NCBI GenBank assembly: GCA_018971405.1
Contig: JAGXAX010000021.1
Span: 1 to 11,522 of the forward strand
From: Alphaproteobacteria bacterium
GTDB lineage: Bacteria > Pseudomonadota > Alphaproteobacteria > Micavibrionales > UBA2020
Length of the DNA: 11,522 nt
Direction: 5' to 3'
In this document: piece after piece, positions 710 through 11,522 of the stretch
Position numbering within the stretch: the first letter of the stretch is position 1
Layout: every line of letters starts with the position of its first letter
Notes under the pieces: generated by a model
Seen by the model: only the letters and a program-made list of their open reading frames with translations
Told to the model about the DNA's origin: nothing
The model's database searches: none
Made by a program: the position numbers and the translations under genes

Positions 710-1222
710 ATGCGGCACAGGGTCGGCGACATCATAACGGTGCGCGACAGGATGCAAACGGGCTACAAGTATACGCTCGTCGCGCCGGCGGGGCGCGATT
801 TCGATCCTGCTTTCAAGCCGCATTTCACGCCGAAGGAAATGCTGGAGCTGGGCGTATTCGAGGGAAAATACTGCAACGACTGCCGGAATGAATTCCCCGA
901 GGACTGGTATGAAAAGGCGAAAACAGCCGCCATGCCTGATCCGTCGCTGAACTATTTCAAGGTCAGGAGCCGCCAGCCGTTGAGCGTGTGGCGGCAAAAG
1001 GGCTGGATCATCGGGCCCGACCCGCGCGGCTGGTTCCAGTGGTACTGCCGCTATTATCTCGGCCGCCGCCTGCCGGAGATCGACGCGGCGCAGATCAAAC
1101 GCTGGCGGGCGTTTTCGCGCCATGCGGGGCAGATCCGCGCGAATTGCATGCCGGGCGACGTCGGCTGCCGCCCGCGCCAGCGTCAGGCGCTGCTGCAGTG
1201 GGCTTACGATCCGTTCATTTAA
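710..1222 (+). CDS. Conserved protein of unknown function, Cys- and Trp-rich, 170 aa
   Basis: I recognise the general pattern of a conserved uncharacterised soluble protein (VGDIITVxDxMQxGYxYxL at the start, FTPKEMLELGVFxGKY, DPRGWFQWYCRYYxGRR, and a CRPRQRQALLxWAYD end) but know no function for it. No signal peptide or membrane segment is visible. The five cysteines are C55 and C58 (a CxxC), C113, C146 and C153; together with the many Trp, Arg and His residues they could bind metal or nucleic acid, but that is inference. The ATG at 710 is preferred over the internal ATG at 755 because the VGDII block belongs to the conserved region. The Shine-Dalgarno is poor (GGGG about 12 nt upstream, inside the end of fabI), so translation may depend on the upstream gene. 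Its TAA (1220-1222) interleaves with the stop of the facing gene. Confidence 0.8.
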   Translation: MRHRVGDIITVRDRMQTGYKYTLVAPAGRDFDPAFKPHFTPKEMLELGVFEGKYCNDCRNEFPEDWYEKAKTAAMPDPSLNYFKVRSRQPLSVWRQKGWIIGPDPRGWFQWYCRYYLGRRLPEIDAAQIKRWRAFSRHAGQIRANCMPGDVGCRPRQRQALLQWAYDPFI

Positions 1223-3057
1223 ACGTCGCCGTCCGGCGTCGGCTCGTGGGGCTTGTCGAGCCCCATTTTTTTGTTGAAGGTCGCGCGCGGGTCTTCCTTG
1301 AAGAGCCACGGCGTCGTGATGCGCCGCCATTGCTGCAATTTCTCCCAGCCTTCATAAGTGAAGCCGGGCAGGCCTTCCGGCACGATCTGCCTGTCGAGCA
1401 GTTCGGGGGTCAGGGTCAGGTAGACGTCGTGGAGGGCTTCGTAGTCGCGCGGCGCGGTCACGATGGCGAAGGCCTTCTTGAAGGCTTCGCTTTGCGGGTC
1501 AAGGCGGTAGAGCGCCTGCGTGCTGAGTTCCAGCATGGCCTCGTTGGCGAAGGCTTCGGGGTTGGGGATTTCCGGCGATATCCAGATGTTCTGCGGCTTG
1601 TCCCACCTGTCGCTGCGCAGGTAGGCGAGGCCGACGGGCTTGTCCGGAGCGTCTTTCGTCGTGATCACCCAGAGAGATTCGTGCTTCGGCTCGGTCTGGA
1701 GGATGATCTTCTTGAAGGCGTCGCGGACGTCGGTCTCGGTCTTTTTCTTCCTGTTGCTGAAGCGGACGATGTGCTTGGTGATGTCTTCTAGCGGGATGCT
1801 TCCGGAGAGGCTCTGTATGTCGCGCACGTGCACGGGGCGGATCGTCAGCCGTTCGGTGTGGAAAGCGGGCGGCTCCTTGACCCTGAGGCTGAGCCATTTC
1901 AGCCGTCCGGCCTGCAGCGTGTCGTTGTCTTTCAGGAACAGTTCCTGGTCGGGGCGCGTGATCTTCCGCCCATTGAGCGAGACGCCGCCCTGCAGGATCA
2001 GCCGGCGCGAGTCGCCGCGGCTCTTTTTCGGCCGCGCGAGGACGACGAGGTCGAGCGCCTCCATGTCGCCGGTGTTGAGCACCAACGCCGGCAGGTCGTC
2101 GGGGATGTAGCCTTTCGAGACGGTGTTGTCGAACCAGTCGCGCTCGGTGCGCGCCGTTCCCGCGCCGTGGTAGCGCGCGACGATGGCGGAGGCGAGATCC
2201 GCCTTGGCGTCGCGCGGGCTTTTGGCGAGGGAGGCGGCGATTGCGTCCGGCGGAACGTCGGTGTAGACGCGGAAATAGTCACCGATCAGCGCGTCGGGAA
2301 TGCGCATGACGCGCCCGAACTTGTCGCGCGGAGAATGGACGAGCGAGATGTCGTTGTGGCGGCGCGGCGACTGTTTTTTACGCCCGTCGATGCCGGGGGT
2401 GATGACGGTGGTGAGCAGCGCCTGCGGCTTCTGCTTGTGCTTTTCCTGCAAAAGGCGGCCGAGGGATTCGCTGAACAGGCGGTTCGAGCCGAGGAGGGCG
2501 ATGTCCGCCCGCACCATGCAGGAATCGTAGCCCCGCAGGACGGGGTAGATCATTTCGTTGACGTGGATTTCGCTGCCCTCCGCGATGCGCGCCTGAAAGG
2601 CGTCGCGCGAGATGAGGCGTGCGTGCGTGACGAGCGAGAAAATGTCGAGCATGTCCTGCACGCCCATCCTGTCGTACCACTCCGAGCTGCGGCGGATTTC
2701 GAGCAGTGCGGGGTCGTCGAAGCGCAGCACCATTTTGAGCTGCCGGGTGAGTTCGGCGATGCTTTTGTCCGCTTCCGCGGCGGAGACGTTCCAGATCGTT
2801 TCCAGCCGCCCGTCCATGTCGCCGTTGCGGTTGGTGAAGTCGGAAAAGACGATCACGGCGGCGTGGCCCGCGTCCTGCAATGCGCGCAGGAGCCAGAGGT
2901 TGACGGCGTGGCCGATGTGCAGCGCGGGCGTTTTTATATCCAGCCCGTATTTGACGCGCAGCGGGTGTCCGGTGTGGAGCTTCGCCGCGAGTTCTTCCCG
3001 CGGGAGGAACTGGTCGGTGATCCGGTCAAAACAGGCGAGAATGTCCTCTACGCTCAC
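1219..3057 (-). CDS. Tyrosyl-tRNA synthetase-family protein with degenerate active-site motifs, fused to an S4 domain and a GNAT-like C-terminal domain (612 aa)
   Basis: Residues ~1-325 are a class I TyrRS catalytic domain of the TyrZ-like type, ~330-392 an S4 RNA-binding domain (RRLILQGGVSLNGRKI), and ~399-585 resemble a RimJ/RimL-like GNAT acetyltransferase (FHTERLTIRPV, then WVITTKDAPDKPVGLAYL). Plain TyrRS proteins are ~400-430 residues, so the ~200-residue C-terminal part is an addition. HIGH is intact at 47-50, and Asp80, Tyr171 and Asp178 match Asp78, Tyr169 and Asp176 of the Geobacillus enzyme. However, DPT is DIK (40-42), the Gln173 equivalent is Arg175, the GG(S/T)DQ motif is LGSNR (189-193), and KMSKS is KQSPR (228-232). 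The GNAT part lacks a clear acetyl-CoA-binding loop. I chose the GTG at 3057 because AAGGGGA (3070-3064) lies 6 nt upstream. Automatic annotation would probably say tyrS; these changes argue for an altered substrate or a non-canonical role. Confidence 0.82.
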   Translation of the reverse strand: MSVEDILACFDRITDQFLPREELAAKLHTGHPLRVKYGLDIKTPALHIGHAVNLWLLRALQDAGHAAVIVFSDFTNRNGDMDGRLETIWNVSAAEADKSIAELTRQLKMVLRFDDPALLEIRRSSEWYDRMGVQDMLDIFSLVTHARLISRDAFQARIAEGSEIHVNEMIYPVLRGYDSCMVRADIALLGSNRLFSESLGRLLQEKHKQKPQALLTTVITPGIDGRKKQSPRRHNDISLVHSPRDKFGRVMRIPDALIGDYFRVYTDVPPDAIAASLAKSPRDAKADLASAIVARYHGAGTARTERDWFDNTVSKGYIPDDLPALVLNTGDMEALDLVVLARPKKSRGDSRRLILQGGVSLNGRKITRPDQELFLKDNDTLQAGRLKWLSLRVKEPPAFHTERLTIRPVHVRDIQSLSGSIPLEDITKHIVRFSNRKKKTETDVRDAFKKIILQTEPKHESLWVITTKDAPDKPVGLAYLRSDRWDKPQNIWISPEIPNPEAFANEAMLELSTQALYRLDPQSEAFKKAFAIVTAPRDYEALHDVYLTLTPELLDRQIVPEGLPGFTYEGWEKLQQWRRITTPWLFKEDPRATFNKKMGLDKPHEPTPDGDV

Positions 3058-3135: not shown

Positions 3136-3990
3136 TCAGAGGGGCTTGGGGCCGTTGGCGCGTTTGGCCGGAGCGGTCGTTGGCACAGATTCAGCAGCCG
3201 TGGCGTTGTCGTTGGCGGGTGCTGCCGCATTGCCGTTGAAGGCGGCGGTGGCGGCAGGCAGCGGTTTGGCTTTCGCTTCCTGCGCGGGTGGGGCGGGGGG
3301 CGTGACGGCTTTCGCCTTTGCTTTCGCTTCCTTCTTGTTGCTCCTGTGCGTGCGGTAGGCATCGTGCAGCGTTTTGGCCGAATTGTAGATATCGAAGACG
3401 CAGGTTCCCACGCACCACGTGCTCCACGCCAGCAAGATGCCGCCGCCGATGGTGATGGCCGGCAGGGCCGTGACGGTGGGCACGATCACAAGCGCGGACC
3501 AGCCCACGGCGCCGACGGCCGCGCCCTCCAGCGTCACGCCGCAGAGGAAGACGTCCTTGTGATGCTCGCTCAAACGCGGCTTCATGCGTCCGATGAAGCT
3601 TTTGCGCGGCGCCGCGTTCTTTTTGAGGCGGGCGCGGAAAGGCTCCCTGATCCGCCTGAGGGGGTTGAATTTGGGAAAAGTTTCGGTGCAGAGATGTTCC
3701 AGACGGTCCCATGCGCCGGGGAAGCCGAAACCGATGGCGGTCAGCCCGATGCCGGCAAGCACGGCGCAGCCGGTAAAGCCCGCGACCTGCGCGGAGATCG
3801 GAGCGGAGAGCAGGAAAAATCCCCCCACAAGGCCCTGCACGAGCAAATTGCCGCCGCTGAATACGCCGCCCATGCGCGACCAGAACTTGTTGTCCTTGAC
3901 GAGATTTTTGGCAAAGTTCCAGCCGTAGCGGAAACGGCTCAGTCCTTCCCGCGGTTTGTTCTGTTGTTGTGGATCGGAGACTTCCACCAC
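3136..3990 (-). CDS. Membrane protein of unknown function, tandem paralogue A
   Basis: I do not recognise this family. Counting from the most upstream in-frame GTG (4005), it has a soluble N-terminus with KDNKFWSR (~37-44) and a hydrophobic block at ~53-97 (GGFFLLSAP, then GxxGCAVLAGIGLTAIGFGFPGAW). A basic stretch FNPLRRIREPFRAR follows (~113-126), then a second hydrophobic block (~151-207; FLCGVTLEG, ALPAITIGGGILLAW). The Lys/Ala/Pro-rich tail contains LPAATAAFN and ends GPKPL. Three to four membrane segments are likely, with no clear signal peptide. It shares all these blocks in the same order with the gene at 4138-4950. Starts at GTG 4005, ATG 3996 and GTG 3990 are possible; I use 3990 because GAGGG (4003-3999) then sits 8 nt upstream and the paralogue alignment begins there. 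The true start stays uncertain by a few codons. It lies upstream of the TyrRS-like gene on the same strand with a 78-bp gap. Confidence 0.72.
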   Translation of the reverse strand: MVEVSDPQQQNKPREGLSRFRYGWNFAKNLVKDNKFWSRMGGVFSGGNLLVQGLVGGFFLLSAPISAQVAGFTGCAVLAGIGLTAIGFGFPGAWDRLEHLCTETFPKFNPLRRIREPFRARLKKNAAPRKSFIGRMKPRLSEHHKDVFLCGVTLEGAAVGAVGWSALVIVPTVTALPAITIGGGILLAWSTWCVGTCVFDIYNSAKTLHDAYRTHRSNKKEAKAKAKAVTPPAPPAQEAKAKPLPAATAAFNGNAAAPANDNATAAESVPTTAPAKRANGPKPL

Positions 3991-4029
3991 CGGCATATCC
4001 CTCACGTAACAGTGATAAAATAATCAAGG

Positions 4030-4137: not shown

Positions 4138-4950
4138 TCAGGGCTTCGGGCCGCTGAAATTACGCGCGACAGGGGCTGCGTGATGAGTCGTGCGCGCCGC
4201 GCCGTCGTTGAACGCTGCGGTGGCGGCGGGGGGGAGTTCCGGCGCGTTTTCACGCGGTGGCGGGCATGGTCTCGCCGCGCTTGCGGATTGCACCTGTTCG
4301 CGCGGTTTCTTGCGGCAGGCCTGCCACAGGGTTTCCGCCGAACAAAAAATGCCGAAAATGCTGCTGGCCATCCCCACTGCCACACCGGCCAGCAGCAAGC
4401 CGCCGACGACGGTCAGCGTCGGCAGGGCGAGAATGACGGGAACGGCGAGCACGGGCCAAGTCACTATTCCGGCCACTGATCCTTCAAGCGTGACGCCGGA
4501 GAGAAAAATATCCAGATGCTTTTCGTGCGGCATCAGGCGTATGGCCGGTTTTTGCATGGCGGCGGGTTTCGCGCGTGCTTTTCTGGAGCGCGCGCGGAAA
4601 GGCCTTTTGAACCGCCGCAAAGGATTGGAGTGCGGGAACGACTGCATGAAGTGGTTTTGCATGCGCTGCCATGCGCCGGGCATGCCGTAAGCAATGGCGC
4701 AGAGGCCTGCCGCACCGAGAAGTCCGCAGCCGGCATAGCCGAAGACCTGCACCGCGACGGGCGCGGAGAGCAGGAAAAATCCGCCCACGACGGCCTGCGC
4801 CATCAGCTTGGCGCCATTGGGCATGGCGTTGAAACGCGACCAGAACTTGTTGTCGGTCATAACGGCTTTTGCGAATCTCCAGCCACGGCGCATAGAGCCG
4901 GAACCTTGCTGCGTTTTGCTGTCCTGCTGCTGTGCGGTTGCTGCGTCCAC
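4138..4950 (-). CDS. Membrane protein of unknown function, tandem paralogue B
   Basis: This is a divergent copy of the neighbour at 3136-3990. Shared in order: QQQ near the start, TDNKFWSR, VGGFFLLSAP, QVxGxxGC, a GLCAIAYGMPGAW stretch, FPHSNPLRR...PFRAR, FLSGVTLEG, ALPTLTVVGG, SAETL, a Pro/Ala-rich linker, PPAATAAFN and a terminal GPKP. By eye well over a third of core positions are identical, while the linker is not conserved. Three to four membrane segments are predicted. An upstream ATG at 5001 would add an N-terminal hydrophobic-aromatic stretch, but that ATG lies inside a tandem TATAAT sequence that looks like a promoter, and the paralogue alignment starts at the VD/VE corresponding to the GTG at 4950. 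I therefore start at 4950, although its Shine-Dalgarno is weak (ACGGG about 7 nt upstream). Function unknown. Confidence 0.7.
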   Translation of the reverse strand: MDAATAQQQDSKTQQGSGSMRRGWRFAKAVMTDNKFWSRFNAMPNGAKLMAQAVVGGFFLLSAPVAVQVFGYAGCGLLGAAGLCAIAYGMPGAWQRMQNHFMQSFPHSNPLRRFKRPFRARSRKARAKPAAMQKPAIRLMPHEKHLDIFLSGVTLEGSVAGIVTWPVLAVPVILALPTLTVVGGLLLAGVAVGMASSIFGIFCSAETLWQACRKKPREQVQSASAARPCPPPRENAPELPPAATAAFNDGAARTTHHAAPVARNFSGPKP

Positions 4951-4990
4951 GAAAAAGCCCGTCTTGTAAAGACACAAAAATATACGATGG

Positions 4991-5018
4991 ATTATAACCA
5001 TTATAAGGAAAAGGGCAA
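4991..5018 (-). promoter_or_regulatory. Sigma-70-type promoter for paralogue B
   Basis: On the minus strand TTGCCC (5018-5013) is followed after 16 nt by a perfect TATAAT (4996-4991). A second TATAAT lies just upstream (5005-5000). The expected start site near 4984 leaves a ~34-nt leader to the GTG at 4950. This argues against the more upstream ATG at 5001, which would overlap the -10 elements. Confidence 0.5.
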
Positions 5019-7601: not shown

Positions 7602-10097
7602 CTATTCCTCGATCACTTCCTTGACCTTGCTCGCCAGTTGCTTGAGCGTAAAAGGTTTTGGCAGGAAGTAGACGTGGTTGCCAAGGTGCTCCTTGAAGCG
7701 GTCCTCGGCGTAGCCGGAGATGAAGATGATCTTCACGTGCGGGTATTTTTCGCGGACGATTTTGGCGAGTTGCGTGCCGTCCATCTCCGGCATCATGACG
7801 TCGGTGATCAGCACCTCGGGGTCGATCATCTTCTCTTCGAGGAGCTTCAGCGCGCTTGCCGCGCTCGCGGCATCGACCACTTCATAGCCCTTGTTGCCGA
7901 GCGCCCGCGCGCTGAAGACGCGCACGGCGTCCTCGTCCTCGACCAGCAGGATTTTTGCGGAACCGGTAAGGTCGTGGATGACCTGCCTTTCCTCCGCGAC
8001 GGGCGCGGCCTTGGGGGCGGCGGCTTCCTTGTGCCGTGGCAGGTAAATGATGAAGGTCGTGCCTTTGCCGACGGCGGTGTTGACGGAGATGAAGCCGCCC
8101 GTCTGGTGGACGATGCCGTGGACGGTGGCGAGGCCGAGGCCGGTGCCCGCGCCGACGTCTTTGGTCGAGAAGAACGGCTCGAAGATGCGCGGCAGGGTCT
8201 CCGGCGGAATGCCGGTGCCGTTGTCCTTGACGCTGATCGTCACCCACGCGCCGGCGGGCAGGATTTCCTCGCCGGCAAGCGGTTGCGGTTCCTCCGTCGT
8301 CAGGTTGTTGGTGCGGATGGAGAGCTTGCCGCCTCGCGGCATGGCGTCGCGCGCGTTGACGACGAGGTTGATCAGCACCTGTTCCATCTGCCCCTGATCG
8401 GCCTTGACGAGGCCGAGTTCGCTGCCGTGTTCGAGGCTGAGGTCGATGTTCGCGCCGATCAGCCGGCGCAGCAAGTGCGAGAGCTCGGTCAGCACGTCCG
8501 TCACGTCGAGCACGCGCGGCTGCAGCGTTTGCTGGCGCGAGAAGGCGAGCAATTGCCGCACGAGGTTGGCGGCGCGGTTGGCGTTTTGCTTGATCTGCAT
8601 GATGTCGGCGAACGACGGGTCGCCCGGCTTGTGGCGCAGCAGCAGCAGGTCGCAGAAGCCGATCATGGCGGTGAGCAGGTTGTTGAAGTCGTGCGCGATG
8701 CCGCCCGCGAGCTGGCCGACGGCCTGCATTTTCTGCGACTGGGTGAACTGCTTTTCGAGGTTTTTCTGTTCCGTCAGGTCGATGAAGTGCAAAACGAGGC
8801 TGTCGCTGCCGCTGAAACGGCGGGCGTAGATCTGCGTGACGGTATCCGCTCCCGACTGGAGCGGAACTTCGATGAAGGGCACGGACCTGTCGCCGCCCGC
8901 GACGCGCCCCAGCCATTCGGCCGTGCGCTTCTGGGCGTCCGCGCCGATGGCGTCGAGCAGGCGCCGCCCGTTGAGCGCGGAGACGGACTGGCGCAGGATC
9001 GCGGCGAGCTTGCCGTTGGCGTCGCCGATGGTTCCGTCGGCGCCAAGCAGGCAGATGCCGACAGGCGCCTCCTCGAACAGCCGTTGGAACCGGTCTTCGG
9101 ATTCGCGCAAGGCCTCTTCCATGTTCTGTTCGGAGGTCAGGTCGTAGACGACCGAGCGGGAGATCAGCCCGTGCTCGGCCGAGACGGTGATGGAATGGGT
9201 GACCGCGGCCTTGAAGATATGGCCTGTGGCGGTCTTCATGGGCAGTTCGTCGTACTGGTGGAACCCCCCGCCCTCGAAGAAATCGCAGGGGCGGGCGTTG
9301 ACGGGCGGCTCCGCGAGGAAGTCGTGCAGGGTCTTGCGCTCCAGCAGCGTCTGCCGGTCGACCTTCAGCAGTTGCAAAAGCGTGTCGTTGGCGAAGAGGA
9401 AGCGCCCGTCCGCGCCGATGGAGAAAAAGCCGACCGGCGCGTTATCGGTGAAGTCGCGGAGCTTTTCGCGTTCCTCGCGGATGGCGGCTTCCATCTGGTA
9501 GCGGGGCGTGATGTCGTCGAACCGCCAGTGGATGAACCCCGGCCAGTCCGCGACGTGCTGGCAGGTGACCTGGAACCACAGCGGCGCGTCCTTGGCGCGC
9601 GCCTGGAATTCGGCGAAGGCGCTGCCGTCCGGCGCGGACTTGATGCGCAGGTCGTTGAGCGCGCGCTCGACCTTGCGCGGGTTGTCGAACAGCCGGCAGA
9701 AGCTGACCAGCGACGGCGCGCCGCCGCCTTCCACGAGGGCGTCGAAACGCTTGTTGCTGTAGATGGTTTCGCCTTCGGGGTCGGTGATGGCGCGAGCCTC
9801 GGCATTCTTTTCGAGGACTTCGGTGAGGATCTTGTGGCTGCGGTCGGTATCGGTGTAGCGCTGCTTGAGCTGCAGGAAGACGATCCCGCCGATCACGCCG
9901 TAGGCGTAAAGGGCGACGATGGACGCGCCGTGGGAGCCGTGCGCGCCGATCAGGATGACGAACAGTGAAAAGAGGACGTAGGCCGCGCTGGCGGTGAAGA
10001 GGATGATCGCCTTGACGTTTTTCTCGCGCAGGACGGTCTCTTTTTTTTGCGGCGCCTTTTCGCGGAAGAAGCTTTCATGGCGCGGGCTGTCGTTCAT
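7602..10097 (-). CDS. cckA: CckA, hybrid sensor histidine kinase of the CtrA cell-cycle phosphorelay
   Basis: This is an inner-membrane hybrid kinase/phosphatase. In alphaproteobacteria CckA passes phosphate through ChpT to CtrA and CpdR, controlling the cell cycle, motility and flagellar genes. The 831 residues comprise two membrane segments (~29-50 and ~58-77), three PAS-like regions (~93-200, 208-325, 335-445), and a HisKA domain with GGIAHDFNN (phosphorylated His469). An HATPase domain follows (N-box NLVVNARDA from Asn577; DNGTGI 625-630; GTGLGL 651-656), then a receiver domain (acidic pocket Glu720/Asp721, phosphoacceptor Asp766, Ser794, Lys814). Caulobacter CckA is ~690 residues with two PAS domains, so this version is larger. 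The ATG overlaps the flhB TGA (TGATG), and AAAGGGA lies ~10 nt upstream, so translation is probably coupled to flhB. The HisKA-to-receiver part is very characteristic of CckA; the extra PAS call is less certain. Confidence 0.95.
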   Translation of the reverse strand: MNDSPRHESFFREKAPQKKETVLREKNVKAIILFTASAAYVLFSLFVILIGAHGSHGASIVALYAYGVIGGIVFLQLKQRYTDTDRSHKILTEVLEKNAEARAITDPEGETIYSNKRFDALVEGGGAPSLVSFCRLFDNPRKVERALNDLRIKSAPDGSAFAEFQARAKDAPLWFQVTCQHVADWPGFIHWRFDDITPRYQMEAAIREEREKLRDFTDNAPVGFFSIGADGRFLFANDTLLQLLKVDRQTLLERKTLHDFLAEPPVNARPCDFFEGGGFHQYDELPMKTATGHIFKAAVTHSITVSAEHGLISRSVVYDLTSEQNMEEALRESEDRFQRLFEEAPVGICLLGADGTIGDANGKLAAILRQSVSALNGRRLLDAIGADAQKRTAEWLGRVAGGDRSVPFIEVPLQSGADTVTQIYARRFSGSDSLVLHFIDLTEQKNLEKQFTQSQKMQAVGQLAGGIAHDFNNLLTAMIGFCDLLLLRHKPGDPSFADIMQIKQNANRAANLVRQLLAFSRQQTLQPRVLDVTDVLTELSHLLRRLIGANIDLSLEHGSELGLVKADQGQMEQVLINLVVNARDAMPRGGKLSIRTNNLTTEEPQPLAGEEILPAGAWVTISVKDNGTGIPPETLPRIFEPFFSTKDVGAGTGLGLATVHGIVHQTGGFISVNTAVGKGTTFIIYLPRHKEAAAPKAAPVAEERQVIHDLTGSAKILLVEDEDAVRVFSARALGNKGYEVVDAASAASALKLLEEKMIDPEVLITDVMMPEMDGTQLAKIVREKYPHVKIIFISGYAEDRFKEHLGNHVYFLPKPFTLKQLASKVKEVIEE

Positions 10098-11176
10098 CAG
10101 AGATTTTTCCCTTTCAGCTTGAAGACGTAGGAGATGACCTCGGCCACGGCCTTGTAATGGTCGCGCGGGATGACCTGGTCGATCTGCATGGAGTCGTAGA
10201 GCGCGCGCGCCAGCGTCGGGTTTTCGACGACCGGCACGTCGTTTTCCTTCGCGACCTGCCTGATCCGCTGGGCGACGAGATCGACGCCCTTGGCGACCAT
10301 GACCGGCGCGTCCATCGCGGCGGTGTCGTATTTGAGGGCGACGGCGTAATGCGTCGGGTTGGTGATGACGACGTCGGCCTTGGGCACGGCCTGCATCATG
10401 CGCTGTCGGGCCTTTTGCTCGCGCAACTGACGCAGGCGGCCCTTGATGTGCGGATCGCCTTCGGTCTGGCGGAATTCCTCCTTGATGTCCTGCTTGCTCA
10501 TGCGCATGTTCTGCATGAATTCGTGCCGCTGGAACATATAGTCGATGATGGCGAGGAAGAAGAGGACGCTCAAGACGGCGATCATCATTTTGAGGAACAG
10601 CGTCAGCAGTTCGGACATCGCCTGCGCGAGGTCGAGCCCGACGAAATGGCCGATGCCCGCGAAATAGGGCTTGAGGACGATGAAGATGGCGGCGGACACG
10701 AGGAGGAGCTTGAAGACGCCCTTGACCAGCTCGACCACCGACCGTGCCGAGAAGAGCCGCCCGAAGCCCTTGGTCAGGGATATTTTCGAAAGGTCGGGCG
10801 TGATGGGGTCGAAGGTGAAGATCGGCCCCGTCTGCAGGAAGCCGGAAAGCAGCCCCGCGAGGCCGAGCAGCAGCAGCGGCAGGACGATGTCTCCGGCGGC
10901 GCGCTCGCAGAGGATGCGCATCGCGTGCAGCAGGCTGGCGGGGTCGCCCGGTACGTCGTAGGACTGTTCGATGAGGTTGCCCATCATGTTTTTGATGTCG
11001 GACATGACGCGCGGCAGCGCCAGCGCCGTGATCATCGTTGCGACGAAGAGCACGACCCAGTTGTTGACCTCGCGGCTGTAGACGACCTGTCCGCGCTTGC
11101 GGGCCTCCTCAAGCCTTCGTGGGGTCGGGTCTTCTGTCTTCTGTGACTCGTCTGTGGAATCGTCTTCTTCAGCCAT
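10097..11176 (-). CDS. flhB: FlhB, flagellar type III export apparatus switch protein
   Basis: This inner-membrane component of the flagellar export gate switches substrate specificity from rod/hook to filament proteins after cleaving itself. The 359 residues show the usual order: a charged N-terminus with the family motif KTEDPTPRRLEEARKRGQV, then four membrane segments (~38-55, 96-116, 150-170, 188-213). A basic linker, FQRHEFMQNMRMSKQDIKEE in part, leads to the cytosolic autocleavage domain with NPTH at 273-276, where cleavage occurs between Asn and Pro. The family motif NPTHYAVALKYD continues past the site. It starts 6 bp after fliR and ends with a TGATG overlap into cckA. All expected parts are present and nothing looks broken. 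Confidence 0.97.
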   Translation of the reverse strand: MAEEDDSTDESQKTEDPTPRRLEEARKRGQVVYSREVNNWVVLFVATMITALALPRVMSDIKNMMGNLIEQSYDVPGDPASLLHAMRILCERAAGDIVLPLLLLGLAGLLSGFLQTGPIFTFDPITPDLSKISLTKGFGRLFSARSVVELVKGVFKLLLVSAAIFIVLKPYFAGIGHFVGLDLAQAMSELLTLFLKMMIAVLSVLFFLAIIDYMFQRHEFMQNMRMSKQDIKEEFRQTEGDPHIKGRLRQLREQKARQRMMQAVPKADVVITNPTHYAVALKYDTAAMDAPVMVAKGVDLVAQRIRQVAKENDVPVVENPTLARALYDSMQIDQVIPRDHYKAVAEVISYVFKLKGKNL

Positions 11177-11182
11177 GACGCC

Positions 11183-11522
11183 CTACTGCGGTATCAGGGA
11201 ACTGGAGAGGACGTTGCCGTAGCTGTCCAGCCAGTAGAGGACGCCGGCGGACATGGTCATCGTCAGCAGCAGCAGGCTGAGGAAGATCTGCACCGGCAGC
11301 GCGATGAAGAAGATCTGCAACTGCGGCATCAGGCGGCTGAGGATGCCCAGCCCCAGCTGCAGCAGCGTGCCGACGACGATGAACGGCAGGGTGATCTGCA
11401 CGCCGACCCTGAAGGCGAGAGAGGTCGCGCGCGTGACGACGTCGGAAACCGAGCCTGCGTCGGGGAAGACGCCGGCGGGGAAGAGCTTGTAGCTGTTGAC
11501 CACGGCGGCGAGCATCTGGTGG
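11183..11522 (-). CDS. fliR: FliR, flagellar type III export membrane protein, 5'-truncated by the window edge
   Basis: This is the C-terminal ~113 residues of FliR, a polytopic subunit of the FliPQR export-gate core in the flagellar basal body. The frame stays open to the right edge (codons reading HQ precede the ATG at 11515, followed by MLAAVVNSYKLFPAG), so that ATG is internal. Family features visible are the conserved SYxLFPAG stretch, a membrane segment around FRVGVQITLPFIVVGTLLQL, LGILSRLMPQLQIFFIALPV and a last hydrophobic helix (~LSLLLLTMTMSAGVLYWL). Gene order fliR-flhB is the common flagellar arrangement. The stop (11183-11185) is 6 bp before the flhB ATG. Confidence 0.93.
   Translation of the reverse strand, partial: HQMLAAVVNSYKLFPAGVFPDAGSVSDVVTRATSLAFRVGVQITLPFIVVGTLLQLGLGILSRLMPQLQIFFIALPVQIFLSLLLLTMTMSAGVLYWLDSYGNVLSSSLIPQ

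Follow-up and report, generated by a model that had tools for sequence, protein, structure and literature searches.

A tyrosyl-tRNA synthetase paralog fused to a degenerate GNAT domain in a bacterial family of the Micavibrionales

Introduction

The window analyzed here, a stretch of 11,522 nucleotides of contig JAGXAX010000021.1 (assembly GCA_018971405.1; Alphaproteobacteria, Micavibrionales, UBA2020), carries on its minus strand a gene whose product resembles a tyrosyl-tRNA synthetase (TyrRS), with several catalytic motifs replaced and a GNAT-like domain appended at the C terminus. A sequence-only reading of this gene had offered three options for such a protein, namely a different or modified substrate, a role in acyl transfer, or loss of aminoacylation, and the locus therefore raises the question of whether the gene encodes a working synthetase, a two-part enzyme, or neither. 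The explanation favored here, with somewhat less than even confidence, is that the gene is a lineage-specific, nonhousekeeping TyrRS paralog fused to a GNAT domain, which in the genus of the window has become a pseudo-synthetase and pseudo-GNAT that binds tyrosine or tRNA.

Results

The open reading frame (ORF) encodes a protein of 612 amino acids and begins with GTG, with a purine-rich AAGGGGA stretch upstream (Table 1). Its assignment to the TyrRS family was upheld by profile searches, in which the NCBIfam tyrS model TIGR00234 matched with 192.7 bits (cut-off 113.8, an equivalog threshold) and Pfam detected both tRNA-synt_1b (114 bits) and the S4 domain (25.3 bits; cut-off 22.8). The nearest solved relatives by sequence are 1h3e (307 bits), 6bqy (296 bits), and 6byq (271 bits), presumably from Thermus thermophilus and Acinetobacter, while 2ts1, which is taken here to be Bacillus stearothermophilus TyrRS, reached only 96 bits. 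The HIGH motif (H47-I-G-H50) and the equivalents of the tyrosine-pocket residues Asp78, Tyr169, and Asp176 (presumably in B. stearothermophilus numbering) are present in the window protein, the latter as D80, Y171, and D178. Equally, the four hallmarks reported as altered were found to be so, as D40-I-K42, R175, L189-G-S-N-R193, and K228-Q-S-P-R232, the last two leaving the protein without intact GG(S/T)DQ and KMSKS/KFGKT signatures. The equivalents of Thr40, Asp194, Gln195, and the second lysine of KMSKS are assumed to serve the ATP/adenylate site.

An alignment of 20 fusion copies, 19 of which cover the N terminus, indicates how general these replacements are. Invariant wherever covered are H-x-G-H, Asp40, Asp80, Tyr171, Asp178, and K228-Q-S230. 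Common to all 20 copies are Gln in place of the KMSKS methionine and the absence of the first glycine of GG(S/T)DQ, and both changes occur even in copies in which the two KMSKS lysines and the Asp-Gln pair are intact. Other ATP-site positions are lost by degrees: GSDQ is present in 15/20 copies, the second KMSKS lysine in 14/20 (13 KQSKS and one KQSKG), and the Thr40 equivalent in nine, with Arg or Lys in the other ten that cover the position. Steps of this loss are found inside the genus of the window, where one genome (G002) has KQSRS with GSDQ, another (G007) has KQSQR with GSDR, and four (the window's own, G000, together with G003, G004, and G005) have KQSPR with GSNR. As judged from the aligned residues, the ATP/adenylate side is lost within this genus, and the tyrosine side is mostly retained. 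Identity between the genus of the window and the less changed copies is 0.55–0.63 in the synthetase region, 0.49 in S4, 0.35 in the GNAT part, and 0.24 at the C-terminal end.

Arg175, the equivalent of Gln173, had been taken as the signal of an altered substrate, a claim that did not survive comparison with the other copies. Arginine occurs in the window copy alone and glutamine in the other 19, the remaining pocket residues being invariant as described above. The codon is CGG, one base from CAG, and Arg175 may be a species-specific change or a sequence or assembly error. With one copy of 20 affected, an altered substrate deduced from Arg175 was rejected as a main clue. Of the three options put forward, loss of aminoacylation fits best in the genus of the window given that the replaced residues belong to the ATP/adenylate site.

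The description of the C-terminal domain as GNAT-like was borne out. Pfam Acetyltransf_3 scores the window fusion at 16.9–19.5 bits, below its cut-off of 25.4; among five fusions scanned, two pass (41.9 and 27.8 bits), two fall below (the window and one at 17.6 bits), and one has no match. A profile built solely from three stand-alone GNATs (A6; matches counted at E 1e-15 or better) recognizes the fused C-terminal region in 12/20 copies, with E values of 9e-20 to 5e-34. This profile misses eight copies, namely one of G017, two cut by contig ends, and the five in which erosion is greatest, those of the window (G000) and of its four nearest relatives (G003, G004, G005, and G007). Comparison of the C-terminal profile of the fusion family with the stand-alone GNAT profile by hhalign gave a probability of 99.8 (E 9e-29), and by these sequence comparisons the fused region is a real but degenerate RimJ/L-type GNAT domain. 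GNATs bind acyl-CoA through a loop of the form R/Q-x-x-G-x-G/A. Of the 18 fused domains whose sequence spans this loop, 17 have lost it, the window's included; RGxG is retained only in the C3 copy of G011, and the fused GNAT looks noncatalytic toward acyl-CoA. No match to DUF2156, FemAB, or other aminoacyl-tRNA transferase families was found among the five fusions scanned, and no solved structure matched the GNAT part by sequence better than E 0.14.

A profile search of 142 genomes of the order located the fusion in 15 of the 18 genomes of the window's family and in none of the other 124. Five of the 15 carry two copies, giving 20 in total, of which three are cut by contig ends and none contains an internal stop. 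Within the genus of the window the fusion is present in six genomes and was not found in G001 (93% complete) or G006 (77%). In a class sample of 385 genomes, 13 others passed E 1e-75, with matches that end by position 403 of 593 and include no GNAT part, and in a phylum sample of 398 genomes the window alone passed E 1e-110; both samples are draws from larger groups, with up to three best first-look candidates scored per genome, and a GNAT fused to the other TyrRS class, or a rare occurrence, could escape these searches. Spread by plasmids was considered and rejected, since of 107 plasmid records with a match, 0 extend over 80% of a fusion protein. Loci L037 and L038 each have a type a and a type b fusion gene in the same orientation, ∼1.6–2.1 kb apart, with a gene for a LysR-type regulator between them (by profile in L037 and as a homolog in L038); the type a copy carries a long Pro/Ala-rich tail.

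A TyrS-type match of at least 330 bits occurs in 15/18 genomes of the family (that of G012 is incomplete), while the fusions score 175–301 bits, all 20 of them above the TIGR00234 cut-off. A separate TyrS accompanies the fusion in 12 of the 15 fusion genomes, including all four at 99% completeness, and ordinary TyrS is present in 7/7 congeners of the window genome. The fusion is therefore a paralog, and a housekeeping-TyrS reading for the fusion family was rejected on the same ground. The second canonical TyrRS that the sequence-only reading had suggested looking for was thus found across most of the family but not in the window's own assembly (G000; 88.6% complete), where a search with the TyrS of a congener returned the fusion as the sole match. 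A TyrS of at least 330 bits was likewise not found in G010 (91% complete) or G015 (84%), which also carry the fusion. Around the expected tyrS site of the window genome, one contig ends ∼2 kb away and the other flank is rearranged. TyrS of nine aligned family genomes keeps (S/A)DQ and KMGK(S/T). A quickly built tree of 48 rows (20 fusions, 23 TyrS rows, and five class-level TyrRSs; SH-aLRT support only) places the fusions in one clade (support 100) on the side of the class-level TyrRSs, of which three show KMSKS and one is a long branch, and apart from all 23 TyrS rows; none of the nine TyrS of family genomes groups with the fusions. The genus of the window is nested among the type b copies (support 99).

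Selection was estimated by the Nei-Gojobori method in five of the six fusion genomes of this genus (ten pairs; G002 excluded) as the ratio of nonsynonymous to synonymous divergence (dN/dS). This ratio was 0.08–0.24 for the synthetase part and 0.03–0.40 for the GNAT part (0.03 in the most closely related pair), as compared to 0.07–0.41 for TyrS of four of the same genomes (six pairs); saturation affects some dS values, which are above 1. The synthetase part of the fusion has a lower dN than TyrS in five of the six pairs. Values of 0.03–0.40 indicate that the fusion gene is maintained by purifying selection and is neither a pseudogene nor freely decaying. Between G003/G004 and G005/G007, TyrS (L049–L052) differs by a dN of 0.23–0.31, with 0.03–0.20 for the synthetase part of the fusion; replacement of the housekeeping TyrS by transfer between these pairs is possible.

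A single conserved operon across the whole family was sought and not found, and the neighborhood of the fusion differs among genera. A stand-alone GNAT gene lies downstream of the fusion on the same strand in four genomes (G009, G010, G012, and G016), at a distance of ∼20–200 bp in all but G012, where another ORF intervenes. Two of these GNATs were scanned and match Acetyltransf_3 with ∼90 bits, and the loops follow (Q/H)-G-x-G, as QGKGYM (L046), QGSGYM (L044), QGKGYM (L045), and HGKGLM (L047). In the same four genomes a gene for a protein of ∼350 amino acids is placed divergently beside the fusion, and in G008, G015, and G017 it lies 1.5–2.7 kb off. Across nine aligned copies of this family, Ser149 (within a (G/A/S)-Y-S-A-G box), Asp211, and His284 do not vary; they can be read as a serine-hydrolase-like triad and suggest a serine-hydrolase-like enzyme. 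The family gave no match in the PDB, none in NCBIfam (three copies scanned), and none over the cut-off in Pfam (seven scanned). It is present in 16/18 genomes of the family, the window's included, and in 5/124 other genomes of the order; since copies are also encoded elsewhere than at the fusion, the two are not strict partners. Genera g2, g3, and g4 share some neighbors (stand-alone GNAT, the ∼350-amino acid family, a deaminase, a methyltransferase, and a Na+/H+ exchanger), none of which was found beside the fusion in the six loci of the window's genus.

In five of these six loci, one to four hydrophobic proteins are encoded upstream of the fusion, and ORFs homologous to the two found in the window (Table 1) occur there in four congeners (L033–L036), one to four in each; neither of the two window proteins reached a Pfam or NCBIfam cut-off. 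Downstream of the fusion, the same four congeners carry genes for acetate kinase, a phosphate acetyltransferase-like protein, queuosine salvage, and tRNA-guanine transglycosylase (tgt) (e.g., L034 5640–9638, minus strand), identified by profiles on L034, with acetate kinase also on L035, and otherwise by tblastn. Queuosine occurs in tRNA-Tyr. For this reason the four genes were considered as a functional clue, but were given no weight because neither the 1.2 kb between the fusion and the window end nor the loci of the other genera contain them. No tRNA-Tyr gene is near the fusion in the window or in 15 relative loci, which have only tRNA-Leu and tRNA-Gly. Elsewhere in the window, an ORF at 710–1222 (plus strand) converges on the fusion gene, with a four-base overlap at the stop of the latter. 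Its 170-amino acid product matched nothing in Pfam or NCBIfam and has no relative in the other 15 loci compared; a FabI-type enoyl-acyl carrier protein reductase (3–701) precedes the ORF. Positions 7602–11521 (minus strand) hold a hybrid PAS histidine kinase with, upstream of it, an FlhB-family and then a FliR-family export gene, the latter cut by the window end.

Table 1 Features of the fusion gene, its neighbors, and copies of the ∼350-amino acid family. Positions are those of the window unless a locus or contig is named.
Feature	Position	Strand	Basis
TyrRS-paralog-GNAT fusion gene, 612 amino acids, GTG start	1219..3057	-	ORF and profile matches
Class I (TyrRS-type) catalytic and helical region, residues 1–325	2083..3057	-	Profile and PDB sequence matches
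Asp40-Ile-Lys42 replacing D-P-T; Thr40 equivalent lost	2932..2940	-	Alignment
HIGH motif retained, residues 47–50	2908..2919	-	Alignment
Tyrosine-pocket segment Y171-PVL-R175-GY-D178; Gln to Arg at 175, window only	2524..2547	-	Alignment
LGSNR replacing GG(S/T)DQ, residues 189–193	2479..2493	-	Alignment
KQSPR replacing KMSKS, residues 228–232	2362..2376	-	Alignment
S4 RNA-binding domain region, residues 326–392, still recognized	1882..2082	-	Pfam S4
Degenerate GNAT (Acetyltransf_3-type) domain and C-terminal extension, residues 400–590; acyl-CoA loop unrecognizable	1288..1860	-	Profiles and alignment
Hydrophobic protein upstream, codirectional, 78 bp from fusion gene	3136..4005	-	ORF, without family match above cut-off
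Second hydrophobic protein, codirectional, 44–45% identical to the 3136..4005 protein	4138..5001	-	ORF and comparison
∼350-amino acid family copy	L046 10364-11434	+	
∼350-amino acid family copy	L045 4768-5841	+	
∼350-amino acid family copy	L044 11443-12492	+	
∼350-amino acid family copy	L047 8253-9287	-	
∼350-amino acid family copy in window genome, different contig from fusion	G000:C259:8944-9987		

Discussion

In the favored explanation, a KMSKS-class (“TyrZ-like”) synthetase would have been joined to a RimJ/L-type GNAT domain in an ancestor of the bacterial family. Copies that have changed less (with H-x-G-H, GSDQ, and K-Q-S-K-S) probably retain tyrosine activation in the synthetase part, which would serve the GNAT-fold domain fused to it and also, in four genomes, the neighboring GNAT, so that tyrosine, Tyr-AMP, or Tyr-tRNA would be presented for acyl transfer outside protein synthesis. 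In the genus of the window, the ATP/adenylate site would have been dismantled stepwise, leaving the tyrosine pocket and a recognizable S4 domain. With that site dismantled, the protein most likely no longer aminoacylates, and it may instead act as a binding module for tyrosine and/or tRNA-Tyr, i.e., a sensor, scaffold, or regulator.

Several observations weigh against this explanation. The window fusion still exceeds the tyrS equivalog cut-off, and the fusion may be the sole TyrRS of G000, G010, or G015. In the G003–G004 pair, dN of the synthetase part is 0.089 as compared to 0.034 for TyrS, i.e., the fusion changes faster. Loss of the acyl-CoA loop in nearly all copies makes it doubtful that the fused domain itself transfers acyl groups, and the adjacent type of stand-alone GNAT is present in 0/8 genomes of the window's genus at E 1e-15. 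Finally, S4 is less conserved (49% identity between this genus and the less changed copies) than the catalytic region (55–56%) and hence not specially conserved, so that retained tRNA binding can only be presumed.

A more detailed scheme can be put forward only tentatively: a synthetase-acyltransferase system, working together with a partner GNAT and possibly the hydrolase-like neighbor, would act outside protein synthesis by modifying tyrosine or Tyr-tRNA or by using tyrosine to modify a target, and one genus would have lost both active sites, that of the synthetase in traceable steps, to become a pseudo-enzyme sensing tyrosine or tRNA-Tyr. That a synthetase-acyltransferase system of this kind would be previously undescribed is conceivable, with similar reserve.

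A true bifunctional synthetase-transferase, resembling LysX or ErdS in outline, would charge tRNA or make an adenylate and let the GNAT pass the amino acid or an acyl group onward. The conserved fusion with an adjacent, loop-bearing GNAT in four genomes, the divergent gene with the serine-hydrolase-like pattern on the other side in the same four, and the precedent of GNAT-fold enzymes that use aminoacyl-tRNA and are fused to synthetase paralogs, as described in PMC2922099 and PMC9437257, are consistent with such an enzyme. It is nonetheless unlikely, given the loss of the GNAT loop in 17/18 covering copies and of the ATP site in the window's genus and the lack of any match to aminoacyl-tRNA transferase families among the five fusions scanned.

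Alternatively, the fusion could be a second working TyrRS, comparable to B. subtilis TyrZ or a resistant copy, that still makes Tyr-tRNA with a decorative C-terminal domain and tolerated odd motifs. Its position on the KMSKS-class side of the tree, the TIGR00234 scores of all copies, the second KMSKS lysine and GSDQ in most of them, and the failure to find TyrS in the window's assembly are as expected of a working enzyme. However, the equivalents of Asp194, Gln195, Thr40, and the second KMSKS lysine are jointly lost in 4/6 copies of the window's genus and partly in the other two, and all seven congeners have ordinary TyrS, which together render a working enzyme improbable. That a redundant synthetase copy is decaying without function in the window's genus, as stepwise loss of catalytic residues, the two congeners in which the fusion was not found, and faster change than TyrS in 1/6 pairs might imply, is very improbable in view of the absence of internal stops, the low dN/dS (for the GNAT part, 0.03 in the closest pair), and synthetase-part dN below that of TyrS in the other five pairs.

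Among known systems, KMSKS-class TyrRSs (1h3e, 6bqy, and 6byq) share with the paralog fusion the order of motifs and the S4 domain. The two structures aligned have the methionine of KMSKS and GGTDQ, and the match stops short of the GNAT part; unlike these enzymes, the window protein is without the ATP-site residues. Stand-alone RimJ/RimL-type GNATs are homologous to the fused C-terminal domain, in which the acyl-CoA loop is mostly unrecognizable. The synthetase parts of LysX and ErdS belong to class II. According to PMC9437257, TyrZ of B. subtilis is a second TyrRS that charges tRNA-Tyr with high selectivity for L-Tyr, and it resembles the fusion as an extra TyrRS beside TyrS; unlike TyrZ, the fusion is extended by a GNAT domain and no longer has all of the catalytic residues. 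The same source describes LysX as a LysRS-MprF fusion and fungal ErdS as AspRS-DUF2156, and MprF-like enzymes have the GNAT fold according to PMC2922099, so that synthetase paralogs coupled or fused to GNAT-fold transferases have precedents in both. The fusion type, which the sequence-only reading did not recognize, thus falls into a category already described, that of a synthetase paralog and a GNAT-fold transferase domain in one chain. As described in PMC9437257, however, LysX and ErdS carry MprF/DUF2156-type domains with lipid or sterol targets, in contrast to the class I synthetase and RimJ/L-type (Acetyltransf_3) domain of the window fusion, which gave no DUF2156 match.

Synthetase paralogs with new jobs are known, and the fusion is in this sense of a known kind, a repurposed paralog joined to a GNAT-type domain, of which Arg175 is the least general part; the pairing of a class I (tyrosyl) synthetase with a RimJ/L-type GNAT was not found by searches of open-license PMC papers. 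What the fusion family adds to such systems is a series of extant copies whose motifs range from near-intact to disabled, with intermediates inside one genus and under purifying selection, in which the step from enzyme to pseudo-enzyme is directly testable.

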